A stretch of 22,924 nucleotides of DNA from a virus, in the IMG/VR virus record IMGVR_UViG_3300010413_000181, positions 1 to 22,924 of that record. One strand, given 5' to 3'. This document shows positions 1-16,982 of this stretch, piece by piece; positions within the stretch are counted from its first letter, which is position 1; each line of letters starts with the position of its first letter. A program made the position numbers and the translations under genes. The notes below the pieces were generated by a model, which searched no databases, was not told the DNA's origin, and saw only the letters and a program-made list of their open reading frames with translations.

Positions 1-201
1 AAAGTCAAGTCGCTTCATGAACCCGCCGAACTTGCTCTTGTGCTCTTTAAAGTGATCTCGAATCTCTTTGAAAAGCACCTTCCACTCACCGAGCTCCTCG
101 AGCTCTAGTGTCCCGGCCACCTGGATTGTCTCATCAAAGTAGGAGATGAGCTCCTCAGTGGCGTCCTTGATTGTCGCTACTAGTTCCTTTGCCTGTTCCA
201 T
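1..201 (-). CDS. Hypothetical protein, C-terminus cut by window edge
   Basis: An open frame of 67 codons starts at ATG 201 and runs off the left edge without a stop, so the C-terminus is missing. A ribosome binding site (GTGGAGA) lies about five bases upstream of the ATG, and the gene overlaps the end of the preceding minus-strand gene by 22 bases, as is usual in this operon. The visible part is charged, rich in Glu and Lys, and looks wholly helical (for example EELISYFDETIQ and EWKVLFKEIRDHFKEHKSKF). I do not recognise a family. It has no cysteines or membrane segment in the visible part. It is the most distal gene seen of the early operon. Confidence 0.7.
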   Translation of the reverse strand, partial: MEQAKELVATIKDATEELISYFDETIQVAGTLELEELGEWKVLFKEIRDHFKEHKSKFGGFMKRLDF

Positions 202-479
202 GTCTTCTCCACGTAAGAGCCAGTCTTAGCGTTGAACATGAGGAGGTTGATGTAACCAAACCTCTCCAACCACAGAGCCGCACAGACGGCGTTCAGGACG
301 ACGGGGCCGCTAAGAATAAGATAGTCCTCGGCTTGCACAGGCGTGTCGTCAAAGACCTGCTCAAGCAACTTAATGTCTCCGAAGGGATAGTACCGCTGCT
401 TAAAGATGAAGCTTACCTCTCCGAACTTCGTGGCGTCACTAAAGTCGTGTCCACCATCATGTACAATCCACACCTTCAT
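180..479 (-). CDS. Hypothetical protein, 99 aa
   Basis: This 99-residue protein begins MKVWIVHDGGHDFSDATKFG. It is mixed alpha/beta in appearance: an N-terminal strand (KVWIV), a central acidic part, and a hydrophobic stretch around residues 55-70 (DYLILSGPVVLNAVCAALWL) that could be a buried helix. The ATG overlaps the stop of the upstream gene as TAATG, which implies translational coupling. I recognise no family. An N-terminal KVWIVHDGGHDFSDATKFGE resembles small phage proteins that report rates or numbers rather than enzymes, but this is only an impression and no function is claimed. Confidence 0.75.
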   Translation of the reverse strand: MKVWIVHDGGHDFSDATKFGEVSFIFKQRYYPFGDIKLLEQVFDDTPVQAEDYLILSGPVVLNAVCAALWLERFGYINLLMFNAKTGSYVEKTWNRQRN

Positions 480-997
480 TATAATCTCCCTAACAAGTAC
501 TCTATGATCTCCATGATCGCCTGTTTTTCTTTCCCTTTTGTCACGAACATGACGATCCCCGTGACGTCTTCTCCTTCGGCGAGGTCGGCGGCTGAAGGAA
601 GGTCGGCGTACTTATCATGGTACGCATTGGCCCGTCGCTGGAGCTCTTCCTTCGGATCCTCTAGCGCGTCTTCAAGCTCCTCCAGGTCCGTGACCTTGAC
701 GGCGCCCTTCTTCTTACACGCGGCTTGATGCTTGCCGATGCCTTGTGGCTTGAACTTGTTGCCGCACCACTCACAGCGTACTCGGTTTGTCTCCGTGTCG
801 CCGTCGGCGTAAGCCTTCTTGAACTGGTTGTCGACCGCTTGACCGAGGTTGCAGTTCTTGCAGTTCTCTAGATGAGGGCGCTTAATGTTGGACTTAAGCT
901 CGTCATTGGCTTCGCGCCATGAGATCAAACACGTGCGCTTCGGTATGACGCCACGCTCACAGTTGATCGTGGACCTCTCCCACTCCTGTTGGTTCAT
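479..997 (-). CDS. Zinc-finger protein of unknown function, 172 aa
   Basis: Residues 75-94 form a clear zinc finger, C-x2-C-x11-H-x3-C (C75, C78, H90, C94), in the segment CEWCGNKFKPQGIGKHQAAC. Four more cysteines in the N-terminal part (C13, C23 and the pair C46/C49) could make a second metal site. Residues 104-125 are strongly acidic and probably helical (DLEELEDALEDPKEEL), and the C-terminus (about 145-170) looks like a small alpha/beta unit. The start overlaps the upstream stop as ATGA. Zinc fingers of this type in phage early proteins usually bind DNA or a host protein, but nothing here shows which. The exact role is unknown. Confidence 0.75.
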   Translation of the reverse strand: MNQQEWERSTINCERGVIPKRTCLISWREANDELKSNIKRPHLENCKNCNLGQAVDNQFKKAYADGDTETNRVRCEWCGNKFKPQGIGKHQAACKKKGAVKVTDLEELEDALEDPKEELQRRANAYHDKYADLPSAADLAEGEDVTGIVMFVTKGKEKQAIMEIIEYLLGRL

Positions 998-1239
998 CTT
1001 CTGGCCCTCCGTGGGAGCGCCTTCTTCTTTGCTTGCTTTACTCCCTTCTCTAGGTCCTTGCGCCTGATGCGACGCAGGACAATGTCCTTATTCGTGATCT
1101 TGTGGACCATCACCGGGATGCCCTTAAACGTGTATGAGTCCCCTACGTTGAGGCGTGGCACCTCAGTGCCCTTCATCCGGGTCTTTAGATCCGTCGGACG
1201 GGCATCCCGGAACCTCTCCTTCTTGTGATCATATATCAT
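994..1239 (-). CDS. Small basic protein, 81 aa, unknown
   Basis: The protein has an N-terminal charged part and a probable small beta unit at residues 25-55 (EVPRLNVGDSYTFKGIPVMV, then KITNKDIVLRRI), followed by a very basic C-terminal tail of about 25 residues (KKALPRRARR at the end). The central VGDxYxFKGxPVxVxKITxxDIVLR pattern looks like a small beta-barrel fold that could bind nucleic acid; this is inference. A ribosome binding site (GGAGAG) precedes ATG 1239, and the ATG overlaps the upstream stop as ATGA. No family is recognised. Confidence 0.72.
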   Translation of the reverse strand: MIYDHKKERFRDARPTDLKTRMKGTEVPRLNVGDSYTFKGIPVMVHKITNKDIVLRRIRRKDLEKGVKQAKKKALPRRARR

Positions 1240-1460
1240 AAGTTCTCTCCACTTAGAAAAGCATCAAGCTCTCTATGTCTAAGCTTAATGCACTTAAGAC
1301 CATCAGTAATGAGCGTTACTGTTTCATACCCATAGGTATCGTGTATTCCCTGATCCGTCCATATGAATATAAGGTGCTCAAGCAGGTCACAAAATATGTC
1401 CTTGTTTGCTCTAACCTGAGAGTGTCTACAAGTCTTGCAAGTTTCTAGGTCGTGTAGCAT
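1236..1460 (-). CDS. Small cysteine-containing protein, 74 aa, unknown
   Basis: Cysteines at 8, 11, 24 and 57 (CKTC near the N-terminus) could bind one zinc ion, as in several neighbours. The rest is mixed, with a hydrophobic part DLLEHLIFIW around residues 25-34. The gene is visibly AT-richer than its neighbours and uses more A/T-ending codons. It joins the upstream gene by a TAATG overlap and the downstream gene by ATGA. The tight coupling argues that it is a real gene. No family is recognised. Confidence 0.7.
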   Translation of the reverse strand: MLHDLETCKTCRHSQVRANKDIFCDLLEHLIFIWTDQGIHDTYGYETVTLITDGLKCIKLRHRELDAFLSGENL

Positions 1461-1738
1461 TACGAATCATCCTCTTGAATCTCAGAGCTTTTACAATCGA
1501 CGTGATCACCAATGCCAAGATCTTTAGCATGTTCCCTCCTTAAAGGATACGGCCCGACGTTAGAACCGTCAATCACCACGATCGGTCCTGCGGCCTCCAG
1601 TTGCTTGGCGAACATGGCGTCGGTGATGTCCTTCTGCTTCATGGCGCACTCATAGCACACCATCTCTCCCTTAGGACCATAGGGACGAAGCTCTCGTGGT
1701 CCCTTGCCCTCCGGCTCGCCGCACTTGTAGCACTTCAT
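1460..1738 (-). CDS. Small zinc-ribbon protein, 92 aa
   Basis: Two CxxC knuckles 22 residues apart (C3/C6 in MKCYKCGEPEG and C28/C31 in VCYECAMK) make a typical zinc ribbon in the first third of the protein. A linker follows, then a segment IVVIDGSNVGPYPLRREHA around residues 53-70, and an acidic C-terminus (SSEIQEDDS). The start overlaps the upstream stop as ATGA. Small zinc ribbons of this size are common in phage early operons and in transcription or recombination accessory proteins, but the partner cannot be read from the sequence. Function unknown. Confidence 0.75.
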   Translation of the reverse strand: MKCYKCGEPEGKGPRELRPYGPKGEMVCYECAMKQKDITDAMFAKQLEAAGPIVVIDGSNVGPYPLRREHAKDLGIGDHVDCKSSEIQEDDS

Positions 1739-1935
1739 TCCTTCGCCTTCACTATGATCTTACAACCACGGCGAAATCCATCTTCTTTCCAATCATCATA
1801 GCGAGCATGCAAGGTCTTGTTAAAAGTGTTACCATCCTCTAGATAGCCGAGGCCAAGCGTGTCGCGAAAGTAAGCTATGTCCTGCTCAGTCTCGATCACT
1901 ATCTCCAGGTGATCATCATGGATCTCTAATTTCAT
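1735..1935 (-). CDS. Hypothetical protein, 66 aa
   Basis: A short protein beginning MKLEIHDDHLEIVIETEQDI. The N-terminal part looks like two beta strands, followed by a helix (DIAYFRDTLGLGYL) and a basic C-terminal strand (RRGCKIIVKAKE). It overlaps the upstream gene by about 20 bases and the downstream gene as ATGA. The reading frame is supported by position within a gap-free operon rather than by a recognised domain. No function can be given. Confidence 0.68.
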   Translation of the reverse strand: MKLEIHDDHLEIVIETEQDIAYFRDTLGLGYLEDGNTFNKTLHARYDDWKEDGFRRGCKIIVKAKE

Positions 1936-2125
1936 CTTGTCCCTCCTTTAACATCTGTAGTACGACCCACTTAAATAGACAGTCTAAATTACACCAAACG
2001 AGTTGCGCTCCTTGCGCTACGCGCTCACCATAAACTTCAAAGTCCATTTCACCATGAGCATGGATCACTACTAAACAAGCGCTCTCATGAAGCTCATATT
2101 GTCTTTCACAGTATAGACACCTCAT
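1916..2125 (-). CDS. Small zinc-ribbon-like protein, 69 aa
   Basis: The first residues are MRCLYCERQYE, a CxxC knuckle (C3/C6). A second pair lies at C45/C49 (WCNLDCLFKW), with C17, H22 and H24 between them. The C-terminus is helical and amphipathic (CLFKWVVLQMLKEGQDEI). This arrangement, a knuckle at the N-terminus and Cys pair before a helix, resembles small treble-clef or FCS/MYM-like zinc modules that end in CxxxCF. The ATG overlaps the nuclease stop as ATGA, so the two are probably translated together. Function unknown. Confidence 0.72.
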   Translation of the reverse strand: MRCLYCERQYELHESACLVVIHAHGEMDFEVYGERVAQGAQLVWCNLDCLFKWVVLQMLKEGQDEIRDP

Positions 2126-2892
2126 TTGAACTGGACCTCCCTACTGTGCTTGGGCACCGGCGTGTGCTTGCCGACGACGAGCATCATGAAGCTGTTCGTC
2201 TTGCGATAGCTCACGTAGTGGTGTCTGAGCTTAAACCCGTTGAACGGTGGCGACGCTAGGCCGTTCGCCCACCTCTGGGCCTGGTAGGCAGAGAACCGAA
2301 CAAAGTACTCGTGCCCGACGCCGCCGCGACTACCACTGTCACACCAGCCGGTATATTCTCTTAAGATTTGTTCACCAGCCAGCCGCTGTACCGCTGAGCG
2401 AGGCATGATGATCGCGCCCAACACGTTGTGACTGAGCGCCTTGATGAGCTCGCTCACGGTACCGCAGCTCTTCTTGATGCTCTTGAGACCGTGTACAAAG
2501 CAAACGTAGTAGACCTTCGGGTCCTTGAACGGGTTGCGCACGTCCGCTGCGTCAAGGAAGGGCACCTCCAGGAACTCGTCCGTATATGGAAGCGCGCCGC
2601 CTTCTAGTTCGCCGTACAACCTAAGCTGTCCCATGTCAATCAAGAATCCATAACTCCTTCCACCTCCCTTGATCTCCAGGAGGGTGTGATCTCCTATCGT
2701 CGCGTCCGGATAGACCTTCCAGTCGCCGGTGACCTCTCCGTACTTGGCTCCGAAGAGCTCCACGCCAAGCATCTCAAAGTACTGACCGACGACCACCTTT
2801 ACCTTGGCCGAGTTTAACTTCTGTTCATCCTCGGAGAGCTCCGGAAACAACCAGTTCTTCTGTTGGCGTTGCAGCCAAGGTGGCATCGGCAT
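2122..2892 (-). CDS. PD-(D/E)XK-superfamily nuclease-like protein, 256 aa
   Basis: The signature of a restriction-endonuclease-like fold is visible. There is a glutamate in an N-terminal helix (E40), then PD at 62-63, then the E-I-K triad (E73, K75) nine residues later in DHTLLEIKGGG, then Q89 in the following helix (IDMGQLRLYGE). This order E...PD...ExK...Q is that of PD-(D/E)XK nucleases, in which D, E and K bind the metal and polarise water. The C-terminal half (about 130-256) has no recognised domain. It lies two small genes downstream of the SNF2 helicase, suggesting roles in recombination, replication or host DNA breakdown. The ATG follows the preceding gene's stop by one base and lacks a strong ribosome binding site, so coupling or a start at the in-frame ATG at 2886 is possible. 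Confidence 0.7.
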   Translation of the reverse strand: MPMPPWLQRQQKNWLFPELSEDEQKLNSAKVKVVVGQYFEMLGVELFGAKYGEVTGDWKVYPDATIGDHTLLEIKGGGRSYGFLIDMGQLRLYGELEGGALPYTDEFLEVPFLDAADVRNPFKDPKVYYVCFVHGLKSIKKSCGTVSELIKALSHNVLGAIIMPRSAVQRLAGEQILREYTGWCDSGSRGGVGHEYFVRFSAYQAQRWANGLASPPFNGFKLRHHYVSYRKTNSFMMLVVGKHTPVPKHSREVQFK

Positions 2893-2893
2893 G

Positions 2894-3061
2894 TCATTGA
2901 ATCAGCGCGGCTTGGGCTACCGCCCAAAGTGTGATGGCCTGCATCACCTCACCGATACCTACATTCTTAAATAAAAAGATGTTCGGGTCAGTTCCAAACT
3001 GAACCTCCCAGTCAGAGCTCTCGCCTGGTGGACCGATCCGCTCTATTCTAACCTTCTTCAT
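2894..3061 (-). CDS. Small hypothetical protein, 55 aa
   Basis: An open frame of 55 codons lies between the nuclease and the 104-residue protein, with ATG at 3061 and TGA at 2894-2896. A good ribosome binding site (AGGGAG) sits seven bases before the ATG. The frame overlaps the upstream gene by 14 bases and ends one base before the nuclease ATG, exactly filling what would otherwise be the only gap in the operon. The product starts MKKVRIERIGPPGESSDWEV and ends in a hydrophobic helix (EVMQAITLWAVAQAALIQ). It might be a small single-domain beta/alpha protein or a short membrane-associated peptide. No family is recognised. Confidence 0.65.
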   Translation of the reverse strand: MKKVRIERIGPPGESSDWEVQFGTDPNIFLFKNVGIGEVMQAITLWAVAQAALIQ

Positions 3062-3362
3062 TTATAGGCTCCCTATATTCTGGCATATTAGAAGGCTCCT
3101 CAGAGTGCTCTAAAGGTAACCCATATTTTTCAATATAAGTTATCATAGCTATAGATAGAGCCGCAGTTTGTAATAAGCGTTTTCTAACTTCTACTGAAGC
3201 ATAAGGCGCATTAAGATCTACTGCATCCAATTTAGCTACTCTTTTCCTAAACATTCTTTTCCACTCTTCAAACCCTCGAGATCCGTCAAACCCTCCCCAA
3301 AGAAAATTTTGGACTTTTCGTGCAGCTATAATGGCTTTTACTATATTTAAAGCTTCTCTCAT
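3048..3362 (-). CDS. Hypothetical helical protein, 104 aa
   Basis: The protein is almost entirely helical. It starts MREALNIVKAIIAARKVQNF and contains a Trp-rich part (FLWGGFDGSRGFEEWKRMFRKR), then a long helix around residues 55-80 (EVRKRLLQTAALSIAMITYI), and ends in an acidic, proline-containing tail. A by-eye count of 3061-3360 gives about 37% G+C, against 50-63% in sampled lines of the helicase and nuclease genes on each side, so this gene may have a different history. It is joined to the helicase by an ATGA overlap. I do not recognise the family. Confidence 0.72.
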   Translation of the reverse strand: MREALNIVKAIIAARKVQNFLWGGFDGSRGFEEWKRMFRKRVAKLDAVDLNAPYASVEVRKRLLQTAALSIAMITYIEKYGLPLEHSEEPSNMPEYREPINEEG

Positions 3363-5113
3363 CCTAACAGTAGCTCCCTTATGGACGTCATATCCTTCAC
3401 GTAGTTACTGAGGTCCTTCTTACCTTGAAGGATGCGAACTATCCTCTCATCGATCGAGTTCTCACAACAGATGTCGACGTAAGTCACAGGCAGGTCCTGC
3501 CCGATCCTGTGCGACCGATCCTCCGACTGGATGCGCTTCTCTAAGGCATAGTCGTTAGAGTAGTAGACCACCGTGTGGCAACGGTTCTCCTTCGTCCCTA
3601 TCAGCGTTAGACCGAGGCCACCTGTCCCGGGCTCCCCTACGATGACCTGCAACCCGTCGCTGTTAAACCGCTCCTCAATAGTGTCACGATCAGCGTCCTT
3701 CGTCTTGCCGTACAGCGTGGCGACCTTAAGGCCCTTCTTGCGTAAGTGCGCTTCTATTCTCTCGATGTCATACTGAAAGCGAGCCCAGATCAGGAGCTTA
3801 GAGTGCCACCCTATCTCGTCGAAGATAGAGTCGAGCTCCTTGAGCTTCGTGTCAGCTCCTGGAATGGGTCGCAGTCCTTGCTCGGTGTTCATGAAGCCTG
3901 AGCAGATCTGACTCAACCTAAGCAGTTGGACGATGACGAAGCGCGCCACCAGTTGAGCGCCCTCGAGCTCAGCTACCGCCTGTTCAACCATCTGCTCGTA
4001 CACCAGTCGCTGGTCCGGGCTCATCTCGACCTCTCGTGTCGCATAGTCCTTAGGCGGCAAGTCCAAGCATTGGTCCTTTGTCACGATGAACGAGTACTTG
4101 GCCATGCGTTCCTTAAGCTCGTTCAACTTCTTAGCGCCGTGTACCTTGACGTACCCGCCCTCGCTTCTCGTGAAGTGAGCATAACGATCTCTGAACCGGT
4201 TATAGTCCTCGTACCCCAAGCACGCAGGTTGTAGAAACTCAAACTGCGCCCAGAGGTCTAGAACGTTGTTGACGACCGGTGCGCCTGTCAGGATGACTCG
4301 ACGCTTACAAGAGTCCCTGAGAGAGAGCAACGCCTTTGTGCGTTGAGCCTTTGGGTTCTTAATCCTCGTAGACTCGTCCAACACACATAGGTCAAAGTTA
4401 TACATCGACAATGGTTGAAGCATCGCCTTGACGCTGTCATAAGAGATCACAAACACCTTGAGCGGCACCTGAGCTTTAGCACCGTCGATCAAGGTCTGCA
4501 TGCCTCGGTGTTGCGTAAAGACCTTCTCGATAAAATAGCTGACGTTCGGGTTACGGTGCTTGTCGAACTCACGGAGCCAGACGCCTTGGATCGTCTTAGG
4601 ACAGACAACGAGCACCTTAAAGGGGGGATCGCCCATGCGCGTCTTGGCTTGCCAAAAGCACTCATCAACCACCACCTTAGTCTTACCCGTGCCCATCTCC
4701 ATGAGCAACCCAAAGAACTCTGTGTTGTGCAACGCGTCAAGCGCTACGGTCTGGTGTTTATAAGGCTTGGTAAGACTCTCATCGTAGTCCACTTCAGGCA
4801 CGGTGCCCTCAAAGATGTAGTTCCAACGATGCGTCTGCTTCTTCTCATGACGCTGCTCCGAAAGAGAGCTATACTCTAAAACGACGCGAGCCTCAGGATC
4901 AACCTCGTACTCGTCCTCGTCAAAGTGAGACAACAGGTAGGCAATGTTAGGGATAGTCGTCGGTATGCGCCAGAGCTTGTGCTCCTTAAAGAACCGACGC
5001 TCTGGAAAACCACGAATGCGGTCAAGCAGGTCCTTAAACTCTTCAGCCGTAAGCCGACCGAAGGTGATCCCGAACGCTGCTTCGTCGAGCAGTGAAAGGT
5101 TAAACTTAGACAC
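3359..5113 (-). CDS. SNF2-family DEAD/H-box helicase-like ATPase, 584 aa
   Basis: All core superfamily 2 / SNF2 motifs are visible in order: a Q-motif-like KPYKHQTVAL (117-126), Walker A EMGTGKT (139-145), motif Ia VVCPKTI (169-175), motif II DEST (246-249), motif III LTGAP (275-279), and in the second RecA lobe motif V region GEPGTGGLGLTL (493-504) and motif VI QSEDRSHRIGQ (529-539), which is diagnostic for SNF2 proteins. The N-terminal 110 residues include LWRIPTTIPNIAYLL, reminiscent of the HARP-like region of SMARCAL1-type annealing helicases. The enzyme would use ATP to move on or remodel duplex DNA in phage replication or recombination. The start is GTG 5113, chosen because AAAGGAG lies seven bases upstream; it overlaps the previous stop by eight bases. 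Length is normal for phage SNF2 proteins. Confidence 0.92.
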   Translation of the reverse strand: MSKFNLSLLDEAAFGITFGRLTAEEFKDLLDRIRGFPERRFFKEHKLWRIPTTIPNIAYLLSHFDEDEYEVDPEARVVLEYSSLSEQRHEKKQTHRWNYIFEGTVPEVDYDESLTKPYKHQTVALDALHNTEFFGLLMEMGTGKTKVVVDECFWQAKTRMGDPPFKVLVVCPKTIQGVWLREFDKHRNPNVSYFIEKVFTQHRGMQTLIDGAKAQVPLKVFVISYDSVKAMLQPLSMYNFDLCVLDESTRIKNPKAQRTKALLSLRDSCKRRVILTGAPVVNNVLDLWAQFEFLQPACLGYEDYNRFRDRYAHFTRSEGGYVKVHGAKKLNELKERMAKYSFIVTKDQCLDLPPKDYATREVEMSPDQRLVYEQMVEQAVAELEGAQLVARFVIVQLLRLSQICSGFMNTEQGLRPIPGADTKLKELDSIFDEIGWHSKLLIWARFQYDIERIEAHLRKKGLKVATLYGKTKDADRDTIEERFNSDGLQVIVGEPGTGGLGLTLIGTKENRCHTVVYYSNDYALEKRIQSEDRSHRIGQDLPVTYVDICCENSIDERIVRILQGKKDLSNYVKDMTSIRELLLG

Positions 5114-5330
5114 CCTTGCGCTCCTTTGTCTTTTTAACCCAGTCCGGTTCAGTATAAGCCTGTTTAAGCTTCTCTCGTACTACCTCAAGATCATAAGCTT
5201 TAAACTCAAGGATAACAGTGTGATGAAATTCTGGAGTTGACATGGTGGGATCTCGTTCATCAAGTTCATGATAGATCCACCAAGCAAGTAATTGATCCGC
5301 GTCTAGCGCGTCAAAGTCGGGGTTCGCCAT
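5106..5330 (-). CDS. Hypothetical acidic protein, 74 aa, first gene of early operon
   Basis: This is the first gene after the minus-strand promoter. ATG 5330 has an ideal ribosome binding site, AGGAGG, at 5341-5346, ten bases upstream. The product begins MANPDFDALDADQLLAWWIY and is acidic in its first half, with a basic C-terminus (WVKKTKERKGV). It overlaps the helicase GTG by eight bases, so the two are translationally coupled. It has no cysteines and no membrane segment. As the first product of an early operon it could be a small regulator or a partner of the helicase, but this is inference from position only. Confidence 0.75.
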   Translation of the reverse strand: MANPDFDALDADQLLAWWIYHELDERDPTMSTPEFHHTVILEFKAYDLEVVREKLKQAYTEPDWVKKTKERKGV

Positions 5331-11546: not shown

Positions 11547-12779
11547 ATGGCGTACACGACTGAACAGTTGTTGGCGTTTCTCGACGCCGCGATCAAGGGT
11601 CTGACCACCACGACAACTCTGGGAGCCAGCGTGCTGGAGCCTCAGCAGTTTGACAGGTTCGTAAGGGTCCTTCAACACAAGACCGTTGTCCTGCAGCGGG
11701 CCCGATTGCAGATCATGGACTCGAACCTCGTGGACATTGATCGCATCGCGTTCGCAAAGCGGATCATGGGACCACCGCCTACCGAAGGTCAGGCCAAGAG
11801 CGAAGGCGACTTTGTGTCTCCTGACTTTGCCCAACATCAGCTCATTGCAGCTGACATGCAGGGCGTGGTAGGAATTACGGACAAGATGCTTCGGCGCAAC
11901 CCGGAGAAGAAGGGTCTCATGGACACCATCCTTACGATGATGGCTGAGCGTGCAGGGCTTGATATTGAAGAGCAGGGCATCAAGGGGGACACCGGTTCCG
12001 CTGATCCGTTTTTAGCTCTCAACGATGGATGGCTTAAGCTTGCCAGGCGCAACGTAGTCGAGGACGCATTTGCCGCGTACGACGACGTGTCTACTCCTTC
12101 CTTCTCGACAGCTGTGGGAGAGACTGAGCTCACCGTGTGGTATGACGACGTGCCTATCACCGGCGGGACCTTCGAGATCTACACCACGTCTACTTCTGGG
12201 ACACTGGTCGCGGACGAGGACGGTGATGGGATCATAGACCAGGTCGCCGCTTCTGGCATATCCGGTACCATTGACTACGAGTCCGGCAAAATCGTGCTTA
12301 CGGGTTTGACCGCGTCCACTGACTACTTCGTCAAGTATACAGTCGACTCCTTTGACGTCGACGCTACGTCCGGTGTCCTCTATCCCGAAAACATGTTCGA
12401 CAAGATGATCGAGGTGGTGCCCAAGGAGTACTTTACCAGGCCCGGCGAGTGGGAGATCAACGTGCCTTGGAAGGTGCTCAAAGCCTATCGCAACATCTTG
12501 AAGGCGCGGGGCACTGCTCTCGGCGACGAGTACCAGATGTCAGGCAACGGCAGGGTTCGGGTGCCTTACGAGGACGTGTGGATCCAGTACGTGCCCAACA
12601 TGCCGACTAACCGCGCGTGGCTCACACATCCGGACAACACCATCTACGGAGTGTTCCACGAGGTGGAGGTCGAGCAGGAGAGGGAGGCGAAAAAGAAACG
12701 CACCGACGTGATCATCGATTGCGAGACCGACTACGACTACGAGGAGAGAGAAGCGACGGTCGTTGCACGAATCACTTAA
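11547..12779 (+). CDS. Major capsid protein (HK97-like fold) with inserted beta domain
   Basis: Placement after protease/scaffold, length (410 residues), and a strong binding site (CGGAGG eight bases upstream) fit the major capsid protein. Residues 85-150 (GDFVSPDFAQHQLIAADMQG, GITDKMLRRN, DTILTMMAERAGLDIEEQGI) look like the E-loop and spine-helix region of HK97-fold proteins, and residues 275-410 resume the fold (LYPENMFDKMIEVVPKEYF, PWKVLKAYRN). Between them, about 187-268, lies a Gly/Thr-rich beta domain ending GTIDYESGKIVLTGLTASTD, probably displayed on the capsid surface. It contains DEDGDGIID (223-231), an EF-hand-like calcium loop. The same signature recurs in the tail tube protein. 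Codon use is G+C-rich. Confidence 0.85.
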   Translation: MAYTTEQLLAFLDAAIKGLTTTTTLGASVLEPQQFDRFVRVLQHKTVVLQRARLQIMDSNLVDIDRIAFAKRIMGPPPTEGQAKSEGDFVSPDFAQHQLIAADMQGVVGITDKMLRRNPEKKGLMDTILTMMAERAGLDIEEQGIKGDTGSADPFLALNDGWLKLARRNVVEDAFAAYDDVSTPSFSTAVGETELTVWYDDVPITGGTFEIYTTSTSGTLVADEDGDGIIDQVAASGISGTIDYESGKIVLTGLTASTDYFVKYTVDSFDVDATSGVLYPENMFDKMIEVVPKEYFTRPGEWEINVPWKVLKAYRNILKARGTALGDEYQMSGNGRVRVPYEDVWIQYVPNMPTNRAWLTHPDNTIYGVFHEVEVEQEREAKKKRTDVIIDCETDYDYEEREATVVARIT

Positions 12780-12828: not shown

Positions 12829-13242
12829 ATGTCAACGATATTTACAAAAGCAGAGCTCTTAGCTTTACCGGGCCTGTGTTCTGACTGGAGAAGAATCATA
12901 GAGAACGATCCAAGGGATAGTGTCACGGCAGAGGAGATGATCGCGGAGGTCAACGCTAAGAACAACAACCCGAACAACTTAATAGTTTGGTTGATGAGCA
13001 AGGGCACAAAGTACGCAGAAGCCTTGATCGACGAAGGTGGGATTAACGTTGATACTTTTAACACTCGGGGGCAGACGGCTCTGTACTTGGCGGTCATGAA
13101 TGATGACACCTCTGTAGCGACTCCCTTAAAACAACGCGGCGCTTCAGACCTGTTCCCTACCTGTAAGAAGTGTAACCCAAGAAAATTAGCTTATAAGAAG
13201 GGTAACCCAGCTATGATCGCGATCATTGAGCAAGGAGGCTGA
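12829..13242 (+). CDS. Ankyrin-repeat-like protein in the head operon, 137 aa
   Basis: Residues 72-107 read as an ankyrin repeat: INVDTFNTRGQTALYLAVMN followed by DDTSVATPLKQRGAS, which matches the consensus with the DxxGxTxLxxA start and the LLxxGA end. Residues about 47-71 (NPNNLIVWLMSKGTKYAEAL, IDEGG) and 115-137 (CNPRKLAYKKGNPAMIAIIE) look like degenerate flanking repeats. The N-terminal 45 residues are helical, and a CKKC pair lies at 112-115. ATG 12829 has GAGGAGG (12815-12821) seven bases upstream; an upstream in-frame ATG at 12763 would overlap the capsid gene and is rejected. Ankyrin repeats bind proteins, so it may act in assembly or as a host-interaction factor. It is an unusual gene for this position. 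Confidence 0.75.
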   Translation: MSTIFTKAELLALPGLCSDWRRIIENDPRDSVTAEEMIAEVNAKNNNPNNLIVWLMSKGTKYAEALIDEGGINVDTFNTRGQTALYLAVMNDDTSVATPLKQRGASDLFPTCKKCNPRKLAYKKGNPAMIAIIEQGG

Positions 13243-13244
13243 AC

Positions 13245-14801
13245 ATGAGTCTTTATGAGGTAGGACTAGGCAAGGCGTATAGCCATCCTCAGGCTGCTGT
13301 AGACCAGTTAGTTATTGATACAGGAGGCTCTTTATTTACTGAGGAGCACGTGATTCGAATCTTTGCTGGTACTTATGTGACTAGTGGTTCCGTGAGAGAT
13401 CCTGTGTTATCTTTGTCTGGTCTACAACCTAATGTAACTCCTGATGTAAGCTATCCACTGTGGATAGAAGCTGCTGAAGACAATGAGGTTATATTTCAAG
13501 GCAGATATGGTATTGTATCTAACGGCAACATCAACTTCGTATACACGAAGGGGCTTAAGATTGAGATAAACAATAACGATGAGACAGACTCCGTCGGTAT
13601 AGGCGTTGCTCCTCCTGGAGTTCTTGATACTACTCCAGAGAGTGGGTGGAAGTGTGAGGATGTAGAGATCGAGCTGACCGCTGGTAGTAATGAGGGTACG
13701 ATAGGTTTTTACACTGGTTTGAGCTATGGGCATTTTTTTACCCGGACTAAGATCACCGGTTTTGAGCGTGGCATAGGTCTTCAGGACACTGATGAACTCA
13801 CTATAGAGCTTATAGTGCTGTCGATAAAGGGCTGTATAATTGACGCGTCAAATGAATGTATAGGCTTTGCTTCGGGCATCGGTGACCAGCCTACCATAGC
13901 AGCTGTGATCGATGGTAGCACCTTTAGGGGGACTATAGGGTTATATCTAAACCGAGAGTCGACCTTTGTCTGGATGGTTTGTTTAAACTCCATCTTTGAT
14001 CATGGAGTAACGGGAGGCATGGTGTTCCAAGTGCCTGATACAGGACTATTGAACATGGGCTTCTACGGTGATGGTAACTTGATCAACGTTGATCAATATC
14101 TTGGAGAGACAAAGTGGGGATACTACCCTAGGAGCTTAGAGGGGATCAACGCTATAACTGGGCAACAAGAGCACAGTTTGATCACCGATGATGTAAAGCT
14201 CGATGCTAACTACGTACCTGAGGCGGACAGTCCGGCGTTAAAGCTTGGAGCAGGACACCCCTATAAAGATTTTAACGGCTTTTTAGGCTCTAGAGGAGTC
14301 TTAGATGCAGGAGCTTTTCAGATCACTCAAGCTGAACAAGTCTCTACGGAAGGATATTGCACTCCTGAAGAGGTCATCTTACACTCCGGAGTGATCTACG
14401 AGGATCTTAGTTTGAATAATGACGTAGAGCTTAACACCGCTATTCAAAAATGGATCAATGAGTGCTCTGACATCATTGACAAGTACTGTGAGACCTCATG
14501 GGAGGTGGGCTCCGTACCAGAGTCCATTCGTCGGGCTTGTATCATGATGGTTTCCGAGATCGTGGCTATGGCACAACAACGAAGGAAGAGCTCCATCATC
14601 AAGGTAGCTGAGTTCTCAGCGAAAGTGCTTCACGATGACGTCTTGACCGAAGACGTGAAGGAGTTGTTGGACCTCGAGTACGCTGGAGGTTCAGTGGAGA
14701 TCGGAGATGACATCGATAACAGTGGCTTGGCCATGGCTACGCTCTCTAGCGAAGACGTGGAAGAGATCACGGAAGAGGATGAATGGCCGCCCCGGGAATA
14801 A
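13245..14801 (+). CDS. Head-tail connector protein with N-terminal beta-helix fusion
   Basis: Two proteins seem fused. Residues 1-359 look like a right-handed parallel beta-helix: an opening typical of the fold (YSHPQAAVDQLVIDTGG, then VIRIFAGTYVTSG), many short alternating strands, and the characteristic closing SPALKLGAGHPYKDFNGFLG with VLDAGAFQ (329-359), as at the end of pectate-lyase-like and poly-beta-helix proteins. Residues 368-480 match head-tail connector proteins of the HK97 gp6 / SPP1 gp15 type: CTPEEVILHSGV, TAIQKWINECSDIIDKYCET, VPESIRRACIMMVSEIVAMA. The last 38 residues are acidic. Connectors alone are about 100-120 residues, so this is greatly enlarged. Such a ring would carry projecting beta-helices at the phage neck. 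The beta-helix part is somewhat A+T-richer. ATG 13245 has AAGGAGG six bases upstream. Confidence 0.8.
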   Translation: MSLYEVGLGKAYSHPQAAVDQLVIDTGGSLFTEEHVIRIFAGTYVTSGSVRDPVLSLSGLQPNVTPDVSYPLWIEAAEDNEVIFQGRYGIVSNGNINFVYTKGLKIEINNNDETDSVGIGVAPPGVLDTTPESGWKCEDVEIELTAGSNEGTIGFYTGLSYGHFFTRTKITGFERGIGLQDTDELTIELIVLSIKGCIIDASNECIGFASGIGDQPTIAAVIDGSTFRGTIGLYLNRESTFVWMVCLNSIFDHGVTGGMVFQVPDTGLLNMGFYGDGNLINVDQYLGETKWGYYPRSLEGINAITGQQEHSLITDDVKLDANYVPEADSPALKLGAGHPYKDFNGFLGSRGVLDAGAFQITQAEQVSTEGYCTPEEVILHSGVIYEDLSLNNDVELNTAIQKWINECSDIIDKYCETSWEVGSVPESIRRACIMMVSEIVAMAQQRRKSSIIKVAEFSAKVLHDDVLTEDVKELLDLEYAGGSVEIGDDIDNSGLAMATLSSEDVEEITEEDEWPPRE

Positions 14802-15244
14802 AAACTACCATCAACCTATCTCACTTAGAGCGTTACGTTGATCGCCTTGAAGTTAGATTGGTTCCGATGGTACTTGAACAAGTCGCCATCTTTCTTTCAG
14901 GAGACATGGCTCGAGAGGCTCCCGTTAAAACTGGTCGCTTACAAGGAGCGGTAGATTTTCCGGTACAAGCTAGCGACAAAGAGTTTTGGATAGACATCGG
15001 GGTTGATTATTGGGAAGCGGTGCAGTTTGGTTCTGGTATTCATGGACCTACTGGACAGCCTTATGAGATAAAACCAAAGAATAAGAAGGCTCTGGCCTTC
15101 GTGGTAGATGGACAGAGGATCGTCGTGGCTAGAGTAAAGGCACACCCTGGGAGAAGGGCGGATCCTTTTATTGATCGAGCCATTGACAACATCGACAACA
15201 ACTTGGACTCAGTGGCGGACCAGGTGTTAAGGAGCTTAGAATGA
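14783..15244 (+). CDS. HK97 gp10-like head-tail joining / tail component
   Basis: The 153-residue protein contains the pattern of the HK97 gp10-like family: MAREAPVKTGRLQGAVDF (about 43-60), DIGVDYWEAVQFGSGIHGPT (71-90), then IKPKNKKALAF and a closing AHPGRRADPFIDRAIDN (about 119-135). Members of this family act at the joint between neck and tail. It overlaps the connector gene by 19 bases, with AGAGG a few bases before ATG 14783, and joins the next gene as ATGA. Confidence 0.85.
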   Translation: MAAPGIKTTINLSHLERYVDRLEVRLVPMVLEQVAIFLSGDMAREAPVKTGRLQGAVDFPVQASDKEFWIDIGVDYWEAVQFGSGIHGPTGQPYEIKPKNKKALAFVVDGQRIVVARVKAHPGRRADPFIDRAIDNIDNNLDSVADQVLRSLE

Positions 15245-15705
15245 CTCTAGTAGAGTTGTTAAACGCGATACGAAAGTATCTTTACACAAAGATCAAAACC
15301 GATCTAGGAGATAGCATCAAGTTCATCTTTGTGGGAAAGAAGATTAAGATAGGGGACCTTAGTTTTCCTATGATCTGGGTGATGCCTATTGACTCTAACA
15401 TCACAGATGAGGGCATGGCAATTCATGAAGAGTGGATCTTAGAGTACTGGGTAGTCTCTCTTGTTCGGAGTGATCGAGATCCAGAAGCAGCTAGAGATCT
15501 AGCAGAGCAGTTAGCTATTAACGCTAGCGCTGCTTTGATCACGGACTATACGGGGAAAGAAAATCGGACCCTTAACGGGCTCGTTTCTTATACAAAGCGG
15601 GTAGGGTTCGCACCTAGCGATGATCGAGTCTTAGATGCAGATGAATCGCTTTACGGGGCAGGGGTGCGCATAAGAATTAGGTTCGAAAACGAGGAGGTGA
15701 AATAA
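15241..15705 (+). CDS. Tail terminator / tail completion protein
   Basis: The product (154 residues) begins MTLVELLNAIRKYLYTKIKT, continues with FPMIWVMPID (42-51) and a strand-rich middle (EEWILEYWVVSLVRSDRDPE), then a helix (AARDLAEQLAINASAALI), and ends in RIRIRFENEEVK. This alpha/beta arrangement, size and location between the gp10-like protein and the tail tube are those of tail terminator proteins (lambda gpU-like), which cap the finished tube and bind the head. Family assignment rests mainly on gene order. It ends in a TAATG overlap with the tube gene. Confidence 0.72.
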   Translation: MTLVELLNAIRKYLYTKIKTDLGDSIKFIFVGKKIKIGDLSFPMIWVMPIDSNITDEGMAIHEEWILEYWVVSLVRSDRDPEAARDLAEQLAINASAALITDYTGKENRTLNGLVSYTKRVGFAPSDDRVLDADESLYGAGVRIRIRFENEEVK

Positions 15706-16982
15706 TGCCGACAGAAGTTTTGAGATACTTAGGTCTCAAGAAAGAGGGAGCCACCTACGCAGAAGACTTGGCGGGCGAGCCAGACGTGCACATTGACATA
15801 GCGTCGTGTAGCTTGGACTCGCCCAACGAGCCCTTCATCACGTACGAGGGTGGCATTGGAAGGATGCCTACGAGGTCCATTCCGGGGGCGTACATTCCTG
15901 CAGGAGGACTGGAGTTCGCTGCACAGGTCTCAACGATGGCGTACATCTTGGACCTGTTGTTAGGAGTCTCCGCTATTGACACGACTAACGAAGGCACTCC
16001 TTCAACTACTAATCCGTTCACGGCGAGCGGAACAACGCACGACATTGACCTGACTGGTCCCATCCTTCAGGGCTCTTTTAAGCTGGATGACGCGGAGGTC
16101 ACTCCTACACAGGAGGCACATGATGACGGCTGGGGTACCATCGTGGAGGACAATAGCTCCGGTGTCGGGGGATGGATTGACTACGCGAGCGGAAAGATTC
16201 ACTTGACAGGACTCACGGACACGGAGGACTACAACTACGAGTATAACGACGGGTACTATGTCCACACAATCACTCCGGTCAAGGGTAACGTGATGCCCAG
16301 CTTTAACGCGTACTGTGGCAAGGACATTTTTGAACACAAGTTCTTGGGTTGCGTGCTCAATCAGCTTGACATCGCAGTTGAGCAAGAGCTCGTGAACCTG
16401 GCACTTGACATTCAAGCTGCGAAGGACGTGAAAAAGACCATGACTGCTTTGACGGCGTTGCGCTTGTCTTCAACCAAGCACGGTGAGAGACAAAGATCGT
16501 GGGCAGACTGTACTCTCCAGATCGGAGACGCAGGAGGATCTCTCTCAGATCTCTCTGCGAAGGTCAGAGCACTGTCGCTGTCCATCGTAAATAACGCCAC
16601 GACCGAAGAGAACGTAGGACTGGGCTCCAGGTTTCCTTACGACGGTACTGCAGGACTCTTGGACATCACAGGTTCTGCGACCTTGCAGTTTGAGAACGCG
16701 GACCTCAAGGAAGACTTCTGGGGCTCCGCCACTGGGCCGACCGACACGCCACAGGACAAAGCACTGCAGTTTAAGATCGACGGTGGCGGGATCACGGAAG
16801 GCAACTGGGGAGACGTGGTCATTGACCTTCCCTTCATGCAGTTGAACGCGGTGAACATCCAACCCAGCGGCAGGGAAAAGTTGATGCAGGAGATAGCTTT
16901 CAAGCTCCTCTATGACACTGACACCGATAAGATCATAGAGGCCACCATCAAAAACTACAATCGGTTACACAACCCAGCTTAA
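15705..16982 (+). CDS. Major tail tube protein with inserted beta domain
   Basis: Location between terminator and chaperone, abundance-type binding site (GAGGAGGTGA) and motifs such as YIPAGGLEFAAQVSTMAYIL with DLLLGV (63-88) support a tail tube protein of the Phage_tube_2 type, which stacks as rings to make the non-contractile tail. At 425 residues it is longer than usual. Part of the excess is an inserted module, about residues 113-190, with GVGGWIDYASGKIHLTGLTD (153-172), clearly related to the module in the capsid protein. The tube resumes at about 195 (VMPSFNAYCGKDIFEHKFLG). No sheath gene follows, consistent with a siphovirus. It overlaps the terminator gene as TAATG. Confidence 0.85.
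   Translation: MPTEVLRYLGLKKEGATYAEDLAGEPDVHIDIASCSLDSPNEPFITYEGGIGRMPTRSIPGAYIPAGGLEFAAQVSTMAYILDLLLGVSAIDTTNEGTPSTTNPFTASGTTHDIDLTGPILQGSFKLDDAEVTPTQEAHDDGWGTIVEDNSSGVGGWIDYASGKIHLTGLTDTEDYNYEYNDGYYVHTITPVKGNVMPSFNAYCGKDIFEHKFLGCVLNQLDIAVEQELVNLALDIQAAKDVKKTMTALTALRLSSTKHGERQRSWADCTLQIGDAGGSLSDLSAKVRALSLSIVNNATTEENVGLGSRFPYDGTAGLLDITGSATLQFENADLKEDFWGSATGPTDTPQDKALQFKIDGGGITEGNWGDVVIDLPFMQLNAVNIQPSGREKLMQEIAFKLLYDTDTDKIIEATIKNYNRLHNPA

Follow-up and report, generated by a model that had tools for sequence, protein, structure and literature searches.

A head-tail adaptor gene of a tailed phage was found to carry, in a single reading frame, an N-terminal extension of 359 residues that is predicted to fold as a right-handed beta-helix, and the same fusion recurs in five further, divergent records. 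The stretch of DNA analyzed (the window) is a 22,924-bp IMG/VR record with a canonical late module. This runs from the small terminase, large terminase (phrog_38, E = 1.8e-105), portal, MuF-like protein and XkdF-type protease (PF14550) through the XkdG-type capsid, an ankyrin-like gene, the fusion gene, an HK97 gp10-like Neck1 protein, a probable tail terminator and the tail tube to the tape measure. The order is the same as in Drs3, vir075 and PhiF3, where the slot of the fusion gene is occupied by a stand-alone adaptor gene of 120-140 aa. The minus strand of the window holds a divergent block of early genes at positions 180-5330, among them a Pam3 gp32-like gene (180-479) and one for an SNF2-type helicase (3359-5113).

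The sequence-only reading had proposed an uninterrupted frame in which about 360 residues precede a complete connector, and this description proved accurate. The open reading frame has 518 codons, begins with ATG and is unbroken, and the connector begins at residue 370, where its stand-alone homologues start. We considered that a free adaptor might be made from an alternative internal start and rejected this candidate: the window has no start codon within ~28 codons ahead of the adaptor half, and the start codons before the adaptor in the fusion homologues are scattered and not conserved. Since the window holds no re-initiation site ahead of the adaptor, each adaptor subunit should bear an N-terminal beta-helix. 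Table 1 gives the coordinates of the gene, its parts and its neighbors.

Table 1. Features of the fusion gene and the surrounding late genes in the window
Feature	Position	Strand	Basis
Major capsid protein (XkdG-like) with inserted domain at ~12153-12338	11547..12779	+	homology
Ankyrin-like small protein directly upstream of fusion gene	12829..13242	+	profile
Shine-Dalgarno AGGAGG of fusion gene	13233..13238	+	strong; sequence inspection
Beta-helix/head-tail adaptor fusion gene, 518 aa	13245..14801	+	single ORF; homologous fusions
Predicted right-handed beta-helix domain, residues 1-359	13245..14321	+	AlphaFold2, fold matches, family HMM
N-terminal cap helix of beta-helix, residues 15-26, PQAAVDQL motif	13287..13322	+	AlphaFold2, homologue conservation
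C-terminal cap motif SPALKLG..DAGAFQ, residues 329-359	14229..14321	+	kept in relatives; pLDDT partly low
Short linker, residues 360-369	14322..14351	+	alignment, AlphaFold2
Head-tail adaptor domain, residues 370-477; helices 374-381, 393-415, 426-448, 469-476	14352..14675	+	homology, model
C-terminal tail, acidic, low-confidence, residues 478-518	14676..14798	+	AlphaFold2
HK97 gp10-like tail completion/Neck1 protein	14783..15244	+	phrog_5, E 4.2e-7
Probable tail terminator	15241..15705	+	phrog_4204, E 0.021; gene order
Tail tube protein with inserted domain at ~16059-16244, homologous to that of the capsid	15705..16982	+	homology

A profile search had been suggested for both halves of the protein; among PHROGs, Pfam and NCBIfam families, it gave a significant match for the adaptor half only. 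Residues 371-475 match phrog_27112 (E = 3.4e-14). The Pfam models scored below their cut-offs, gp6-like PF05135 reaching 13.7 bits of the required 21.2 with the window protein and Mu gp36-like PF07030 17.0 of 24.7 with L090, one of the other fusions, so we assigned the adaptor by homology to stand-alone adaptors and not by Pfam. By tblastn, the window protein found vir075 (2e-9) and Drs3 (3e-6) at the corresponding gene position; with the whole protein as query, the post-capsid genes of these two phages, of 120-140 aa, were the sole matches in the phage collection, and they covered the adaptor part only. Methanogen viruses, PhiF3 among them, and many uncultivated phages have at this position a stand-alone adaptor gene of 120-143 residues, whose product begins at a YCT motif that corresponds to residue 371 of the fusion protein. 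The adaptors of Drs3, vir075 and PhiF3 (phrog_27112) have a homologous domain at 24-32% identity, in the same gene position and order, but lack a beta-helix; the post-capsid genes of these phages are unannotated or misnamed. A search with a family HMM located the adaptor domain past the capsid gene in some 45 loci. In the structural model, predicted helices span residues 374-476, as in a helical adaptor fold, and a search of BFVD returned the head-tail connector ctQf419 and the Gordonia phage Volt adaptor, both with a probability of 1.00, a TM score by target of 0.49-0.52 and modest E values (0.01-0.07). Adaptor genes in two other loci (L140, 8247-9092; L127, 5191-5922) have insertions of ~50-160 residues inside the adaptor domain, not at its N terminus.

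The beta-helix itself had been guessed from motifs, and the predicted structure bears the guess out. From a single sequence, AlphaFold2 returned an unusable model (pLDDT 34). With an input of 14 rows, six fusions and eight adaptor-only or adaptor-part rows, of which only the six cover the beta-helix, one model contained both a beta-helix and a helical adaptor. Its mean pLDDT is 70.1, with 88-95 in the first four ten-residue blocks and weak confidence at residues 337-353 and 360-368; the C-cap is partly under 50. Serial strands follow the cap helix from residue 35 to 286, and the N- and C-terminal motifs that had been quoted as hallmarks of the fold are conserved across homologues. Among PDB entries, Foldseek ranked pectate lyase Pel9A first (E = 4.6e-4, probability 1.00) and the HK620 tailspike next. 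With VIA-align 2, the model aligned to solved right-handed beta-helices along 243-295 residues at Z scores of 18-25, namely to PL6 alginate lyases, Pel9A, rhamnogalacturonan lyase, AlgE4 and the Sf6 and HK620 tailspikes. The HK620 and Sf6 tailspikes and the PL6 and PL9 polysaccharide lyases are like the predicted residues 1-359 in fold, but their identity to them is just 8-17%, and the two tailspikes are trimers at the tail tip. Such likeness of a predicted fold to lyases and tailspikes does not demonstrate a function. The model shows a single-chain parallel beta-helix with an N-terminal cap helix, as in pectate-lyase-like proteins. Residues 1-360 had no match in Pfam, PHROGs or NCBIfam. In Pfam and NCBIfam, even E values as high as 1 brought up no beta-helix model, so we place the domain among the pectate-lyase-like beta-helices by its predicted fold only. 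PDB sequence profiles matched neither half of the fusion protein. A profile built from the six fusions matched, in 1 of 395 genomes, a bacterial beta-helix protein with a similar C-cap, SPA..DIGAFE (E = 2.2e-4), and separately, also in 1 of 395, a Mu-like adaptor gene (E = 5.5e-4).

The sequence-only reading had called for a search for other phages with this fusion. Single-protein scans of IMG/VR with either half or with the terminase gave no relatives, but alignments of the capsid protein did find them, and capsid-gene matches were then used to collect neighboring genes from IMG/VR and GTDB genomes. A first search of genome contigs with a two-row fusion profile gave no matches. The same fusion, with the same junction, is present in five more divergent records at 29-36% identity to the window protein: L090 (509 aa; contig from an FCB-group MAG); L006 (498 aa); L094 (502 aa); L095 (500 aa, with an identical copy in L097 and a truncated one in L096); and L105 (624 aa, with 110 additional N-terminal residues). 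Taken by half, identity to the window is 24-33% for the beta-helix and 38-46% for the adaptor. Independent fusions in five divergent genomes refute the idea that two genes were joined by a sequencing or assembly error, the very outcome against which the earlier reading had staked its claim. Genes of this family can indeed be damaged: a related beta-helix gene in L086 is broken by a 20-bp tandem duplication (1761-1866), in which assembly error and real decay are indistinguishable (we concatenated its two pieces for alignments); still, the chance that the fusion is such an artifact is negligible. Within the phylum of the FCB-group MAG, the beta-helix fusion was found in 1 of 132 genomes, this being the MAG's own contig, and the whole fusion was found in none of the 395 genomes of the phylum of a Bacteroidetes MAG. 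In a contig of a Bacteroidetes MAG (L091, 1539-4918), genes that by eye are methyltransferase-, nucleotidyltransferase- and radical-SAM-like replace the neck genes after a phage capsid gene. The L006 record has a repeat-rich insertion around the tail chaperone region (13980-15059), with reading frames of a ~20-residue repeat, NAAVPAANKAGEDACATITG.

In a capsid-protein tree of 45 loci, all six fusions fall within one nine-member clade (support 100/99) and none of the 36 loci outside it has one; on this tree, the beta-helix label requires at least two changes. Members of the same clade differ in what they carry at this end of the adaptor. An unrelated domain of ~110 residues replaces the beta-helix in L098 and L104, where the two copies are 44% identical to each other; it has no convincing family match and is plausibly a beta-sandwich. 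The remaining member, L099/L100, has the adaptor alone, with no N-terminal domain. L086, which has another neck module, places the same beta-helix family ahead of a different, stopper-like connector. The segment N-terminal to its beta-helix resembles that of L105 (35% over 199 residues, E = 2e-25), the domain after the beta-helix matches phrog_797 (E = 5.6e-4) and, weakly, a head-tail connector family, and the gene is flanked by a putative adaptor gene and a gp10-like one, the expected position of a stopper. Because clade members swap or drop the beta-helix, and L086 joins it to a different connector, the N terminus of the neck protein is a swappable slot. L104 also has, at 670-2082 between its capsid and adaptor genes, a free-standing 471-aa protein whose start looks beta-helix-like by eye; the L104 adaptor itself bears the ~110-residue domain, not a beta-helix. 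Between the adaptor and the tail terminator we saw no stopper-type gene in the clade or in Drs3 (window 14783-15705; L003), only the gp10-like gene.

The beta-helix also changes faster than the main structural genes. Between L094 and L097, identity is 60.5% for the beta-helix, against 72.6% for the adaptor, 86.8% for the capsid, 83.6% for the portal, 78.6% for the terminase and 78-83% for tail genes; two small accessory genes diverge even more than the beta-helix. Set against the same two records, the window shows 75-76% identity in its capsid protein and 31-33% in the beta-helix. In a dN/dS comparison of L094 and L097, synonymous sites were saturated, so the faster divergence of the beta-helix is no proof of positive selection. 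Base composition was considered as a sign of import. The GC content of the beta-helix stretch is 0.44-0.46, against 0.55-0.57 for the capsid gene, but the adjoining adaptor and tail-completion genes are likewise low, so import is not inferable from composition, and we dropped this line of evidence.

Other parts of this virion have additions too. The capsid and tail tube proteins have a common inserted domain (SGTIDYxSGKIxLTGLT) that is 45% identical over 62 aa (E = 2e-13), and two more copies lie in an extra gene after the L098 capsid gene (L098, 7288-8298). With these inserts and the beta-helix of the neck, head, neck and tail all bear accessory domains. As far as sequence goes, the shared insert and the fast divergence of the beta-helix would fit a virion decorated for surface contact. 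The ankyrin-like gene upstream of the fusion is present in five of the six fusion loci (in the others at L090 9269-9748, L094 7269-7583, L095 2231-2530 and L105 465-863) and in none of the other loci compared. The profile used for this gene included one row in the wrong frame, and the true window gene was still found at E = 1.9e-17. Its product is possibly an assembly helper.

What might a beta-helix do at this place? Adaptors are 12-mers between portal and stopper in phage 812 (PMC12886913), R4C (PMC10276861) and Douge (PMC13033339). By homology, the fusion gene product would be a dodecameric head-tail adaptor, its N terminus extended by a complete single-chain beta-helix, and about 12 beta-helices would stand out from the neck all the way around it, as accessory domains on the virion surface. 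An outward beta-helix is topologically sensible, since adaptors of other phages carry a beta-sandwich outside the neck (N-terminal in R4C, and in phage 812); since the domain before the R4C adaptor core lies outside the channel beside the capsid, beta-helices so placed would be expected to encircle the neck. The copy number, the orientation and the sugar contact are all inferred, and the 12-fold crown that had been proposed from the gene alone is likewise drawn by analogy. We lean towards accessory beta-helices that ring the neck on its outside and serve chiefly for low-affinity contact with surface glycans in adsorption, where they would add to the accessory domains of capsid and tail tube. 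Beta-helices in phages usually handle glycans, which by analogy makes a sugar role a reasonable lead. Phage Douge, for one, binds host glycans with Ig-like domains borne by its capsid and its tail tube (PMC13033339). Our grounds for favoring surface contact are all indirect: the beta-helix is a large domain, a near relative dispenses with it, other clade members exchange it for another domain, it recurs on a second neck protein, and it changes faster than the main structural genes. A bolder version, in which a mobile beta-helix cassette is swapped among neck proteins of different phages and with other domains, giving a roughly 12-fold glycan-binding crown that sets adsorption from the neck and not from the tail tip, is one we put forward only tentatively.

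A serious rival, if a rather less likely one, is that the beta-helix has only a structural role, like the one proposed for the R4C adaptor. It would then pack on the capsid around the portal vertex and stabilize the head-neck junction or absorb the symmetry mismatch, with no host contact. The N-terminal Ig-like domain of the R4C adaptor touches the capsid, and its role is taken to be one of local stability; the authors of that work argue against a role in adsorption since the domain lies against the head (PMC10276861); the beta-sandwich of the phage 812 adaptor contacts the capsid as well (PMC12886913), and the ~110-residue domain found in the same slot in L098 and L104 is about the size of the R4C attachment domain. 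However, 359 residues of beta-helix are far more than a brace requires, and L099/L100, in the same clade, has no domain of this kind at all. The beta-helix also outpaces its would-be capsid partner in divergence, and in L086 it sits on a different neck protein. Sequence cannot decide between host contact and bracing of the shell, and a secondary bracing contact with the capsid shell would be compatible with glycan contact as the main job. A further reading makes the beta-helix a depolymerase at the neck, a lyase or hydrolase that breaks down polysaccharides of capsule or matrix in the manner of the phi29 gp12 appendages. In its favor, the solved structures most like the model are those of polysaccharide lyases, glycoside hydrolases and tailspikes, and collar appendages of phi29 do digest teichoic acid (PMC9863714). 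We nevertheless hold enzymatic activity to be improbable. A fold match does not show activity, no catalytic family in Pfam or NCBIfam matches the beta-helix, and no complete known active site was recognized in the six fusion sequences. Conservation of polar residues in the coil body is scattered across these few sequences, with N248, D276 and K290 kept in six of six; its scarcity also counts against one shared ligand site.

Parts of this arrangement are already known. The phi29 gp12 appendage has a beta-helix fold. Twelve of these glycan-acting appendages sit at the phi29 collar (PMC9863714), but gp12 is a separate trimeric protein, outside the connector ring, with a C-terminal chaperone that is absent from the virion, whereas in the window the beta-helix is N-terminal in the adaptor chain and the C-terminal part is the adaptor. 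The lactococcal neck passage structure (collar/whiskers) is an optional, variable neck decoration that may carry carbohydrate-binding modules (PMC9863714, PMC4759559); unlike the fusion, it has a gene of its own, nps, which precedes that of the major tail protein, and it is not joined to the adaptor. Outside the channel, the adaptors of R4C, RcGTA, phage 812 and Mycofy1 bear an additional domain, which in R4C is N-terminal (PMC10276861, PMC12886913), but this is a small Ig-like or beta-sandwich domain, thought structural in R4C, and not a beta-helix of 359 residues. The window protein shares with R4C and RcGTA an accessory domain N-terminal to the adaptor, which here is a predicted beta-helix instead of an Ig-like domain. 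Collar beta-helix spikes, optional neck decorations and N-terminally extended adaptors are thus known. What appears to be new is a beta-helix built into the adaptor chain: both halves are of known kinds, and we found no earlier description of a beta-helix on a head-tail adaptor in the open-licence PMC literature. Adaptors are usually regarded as conserved plumbing. In a clade whose adaptors carry a tailspike-like fold and swap it for another domain, the neck would become a platform from which the host is contacted, and the clade offers a direct test of whether neck-borne domains serve adsorption or hold the shell together.
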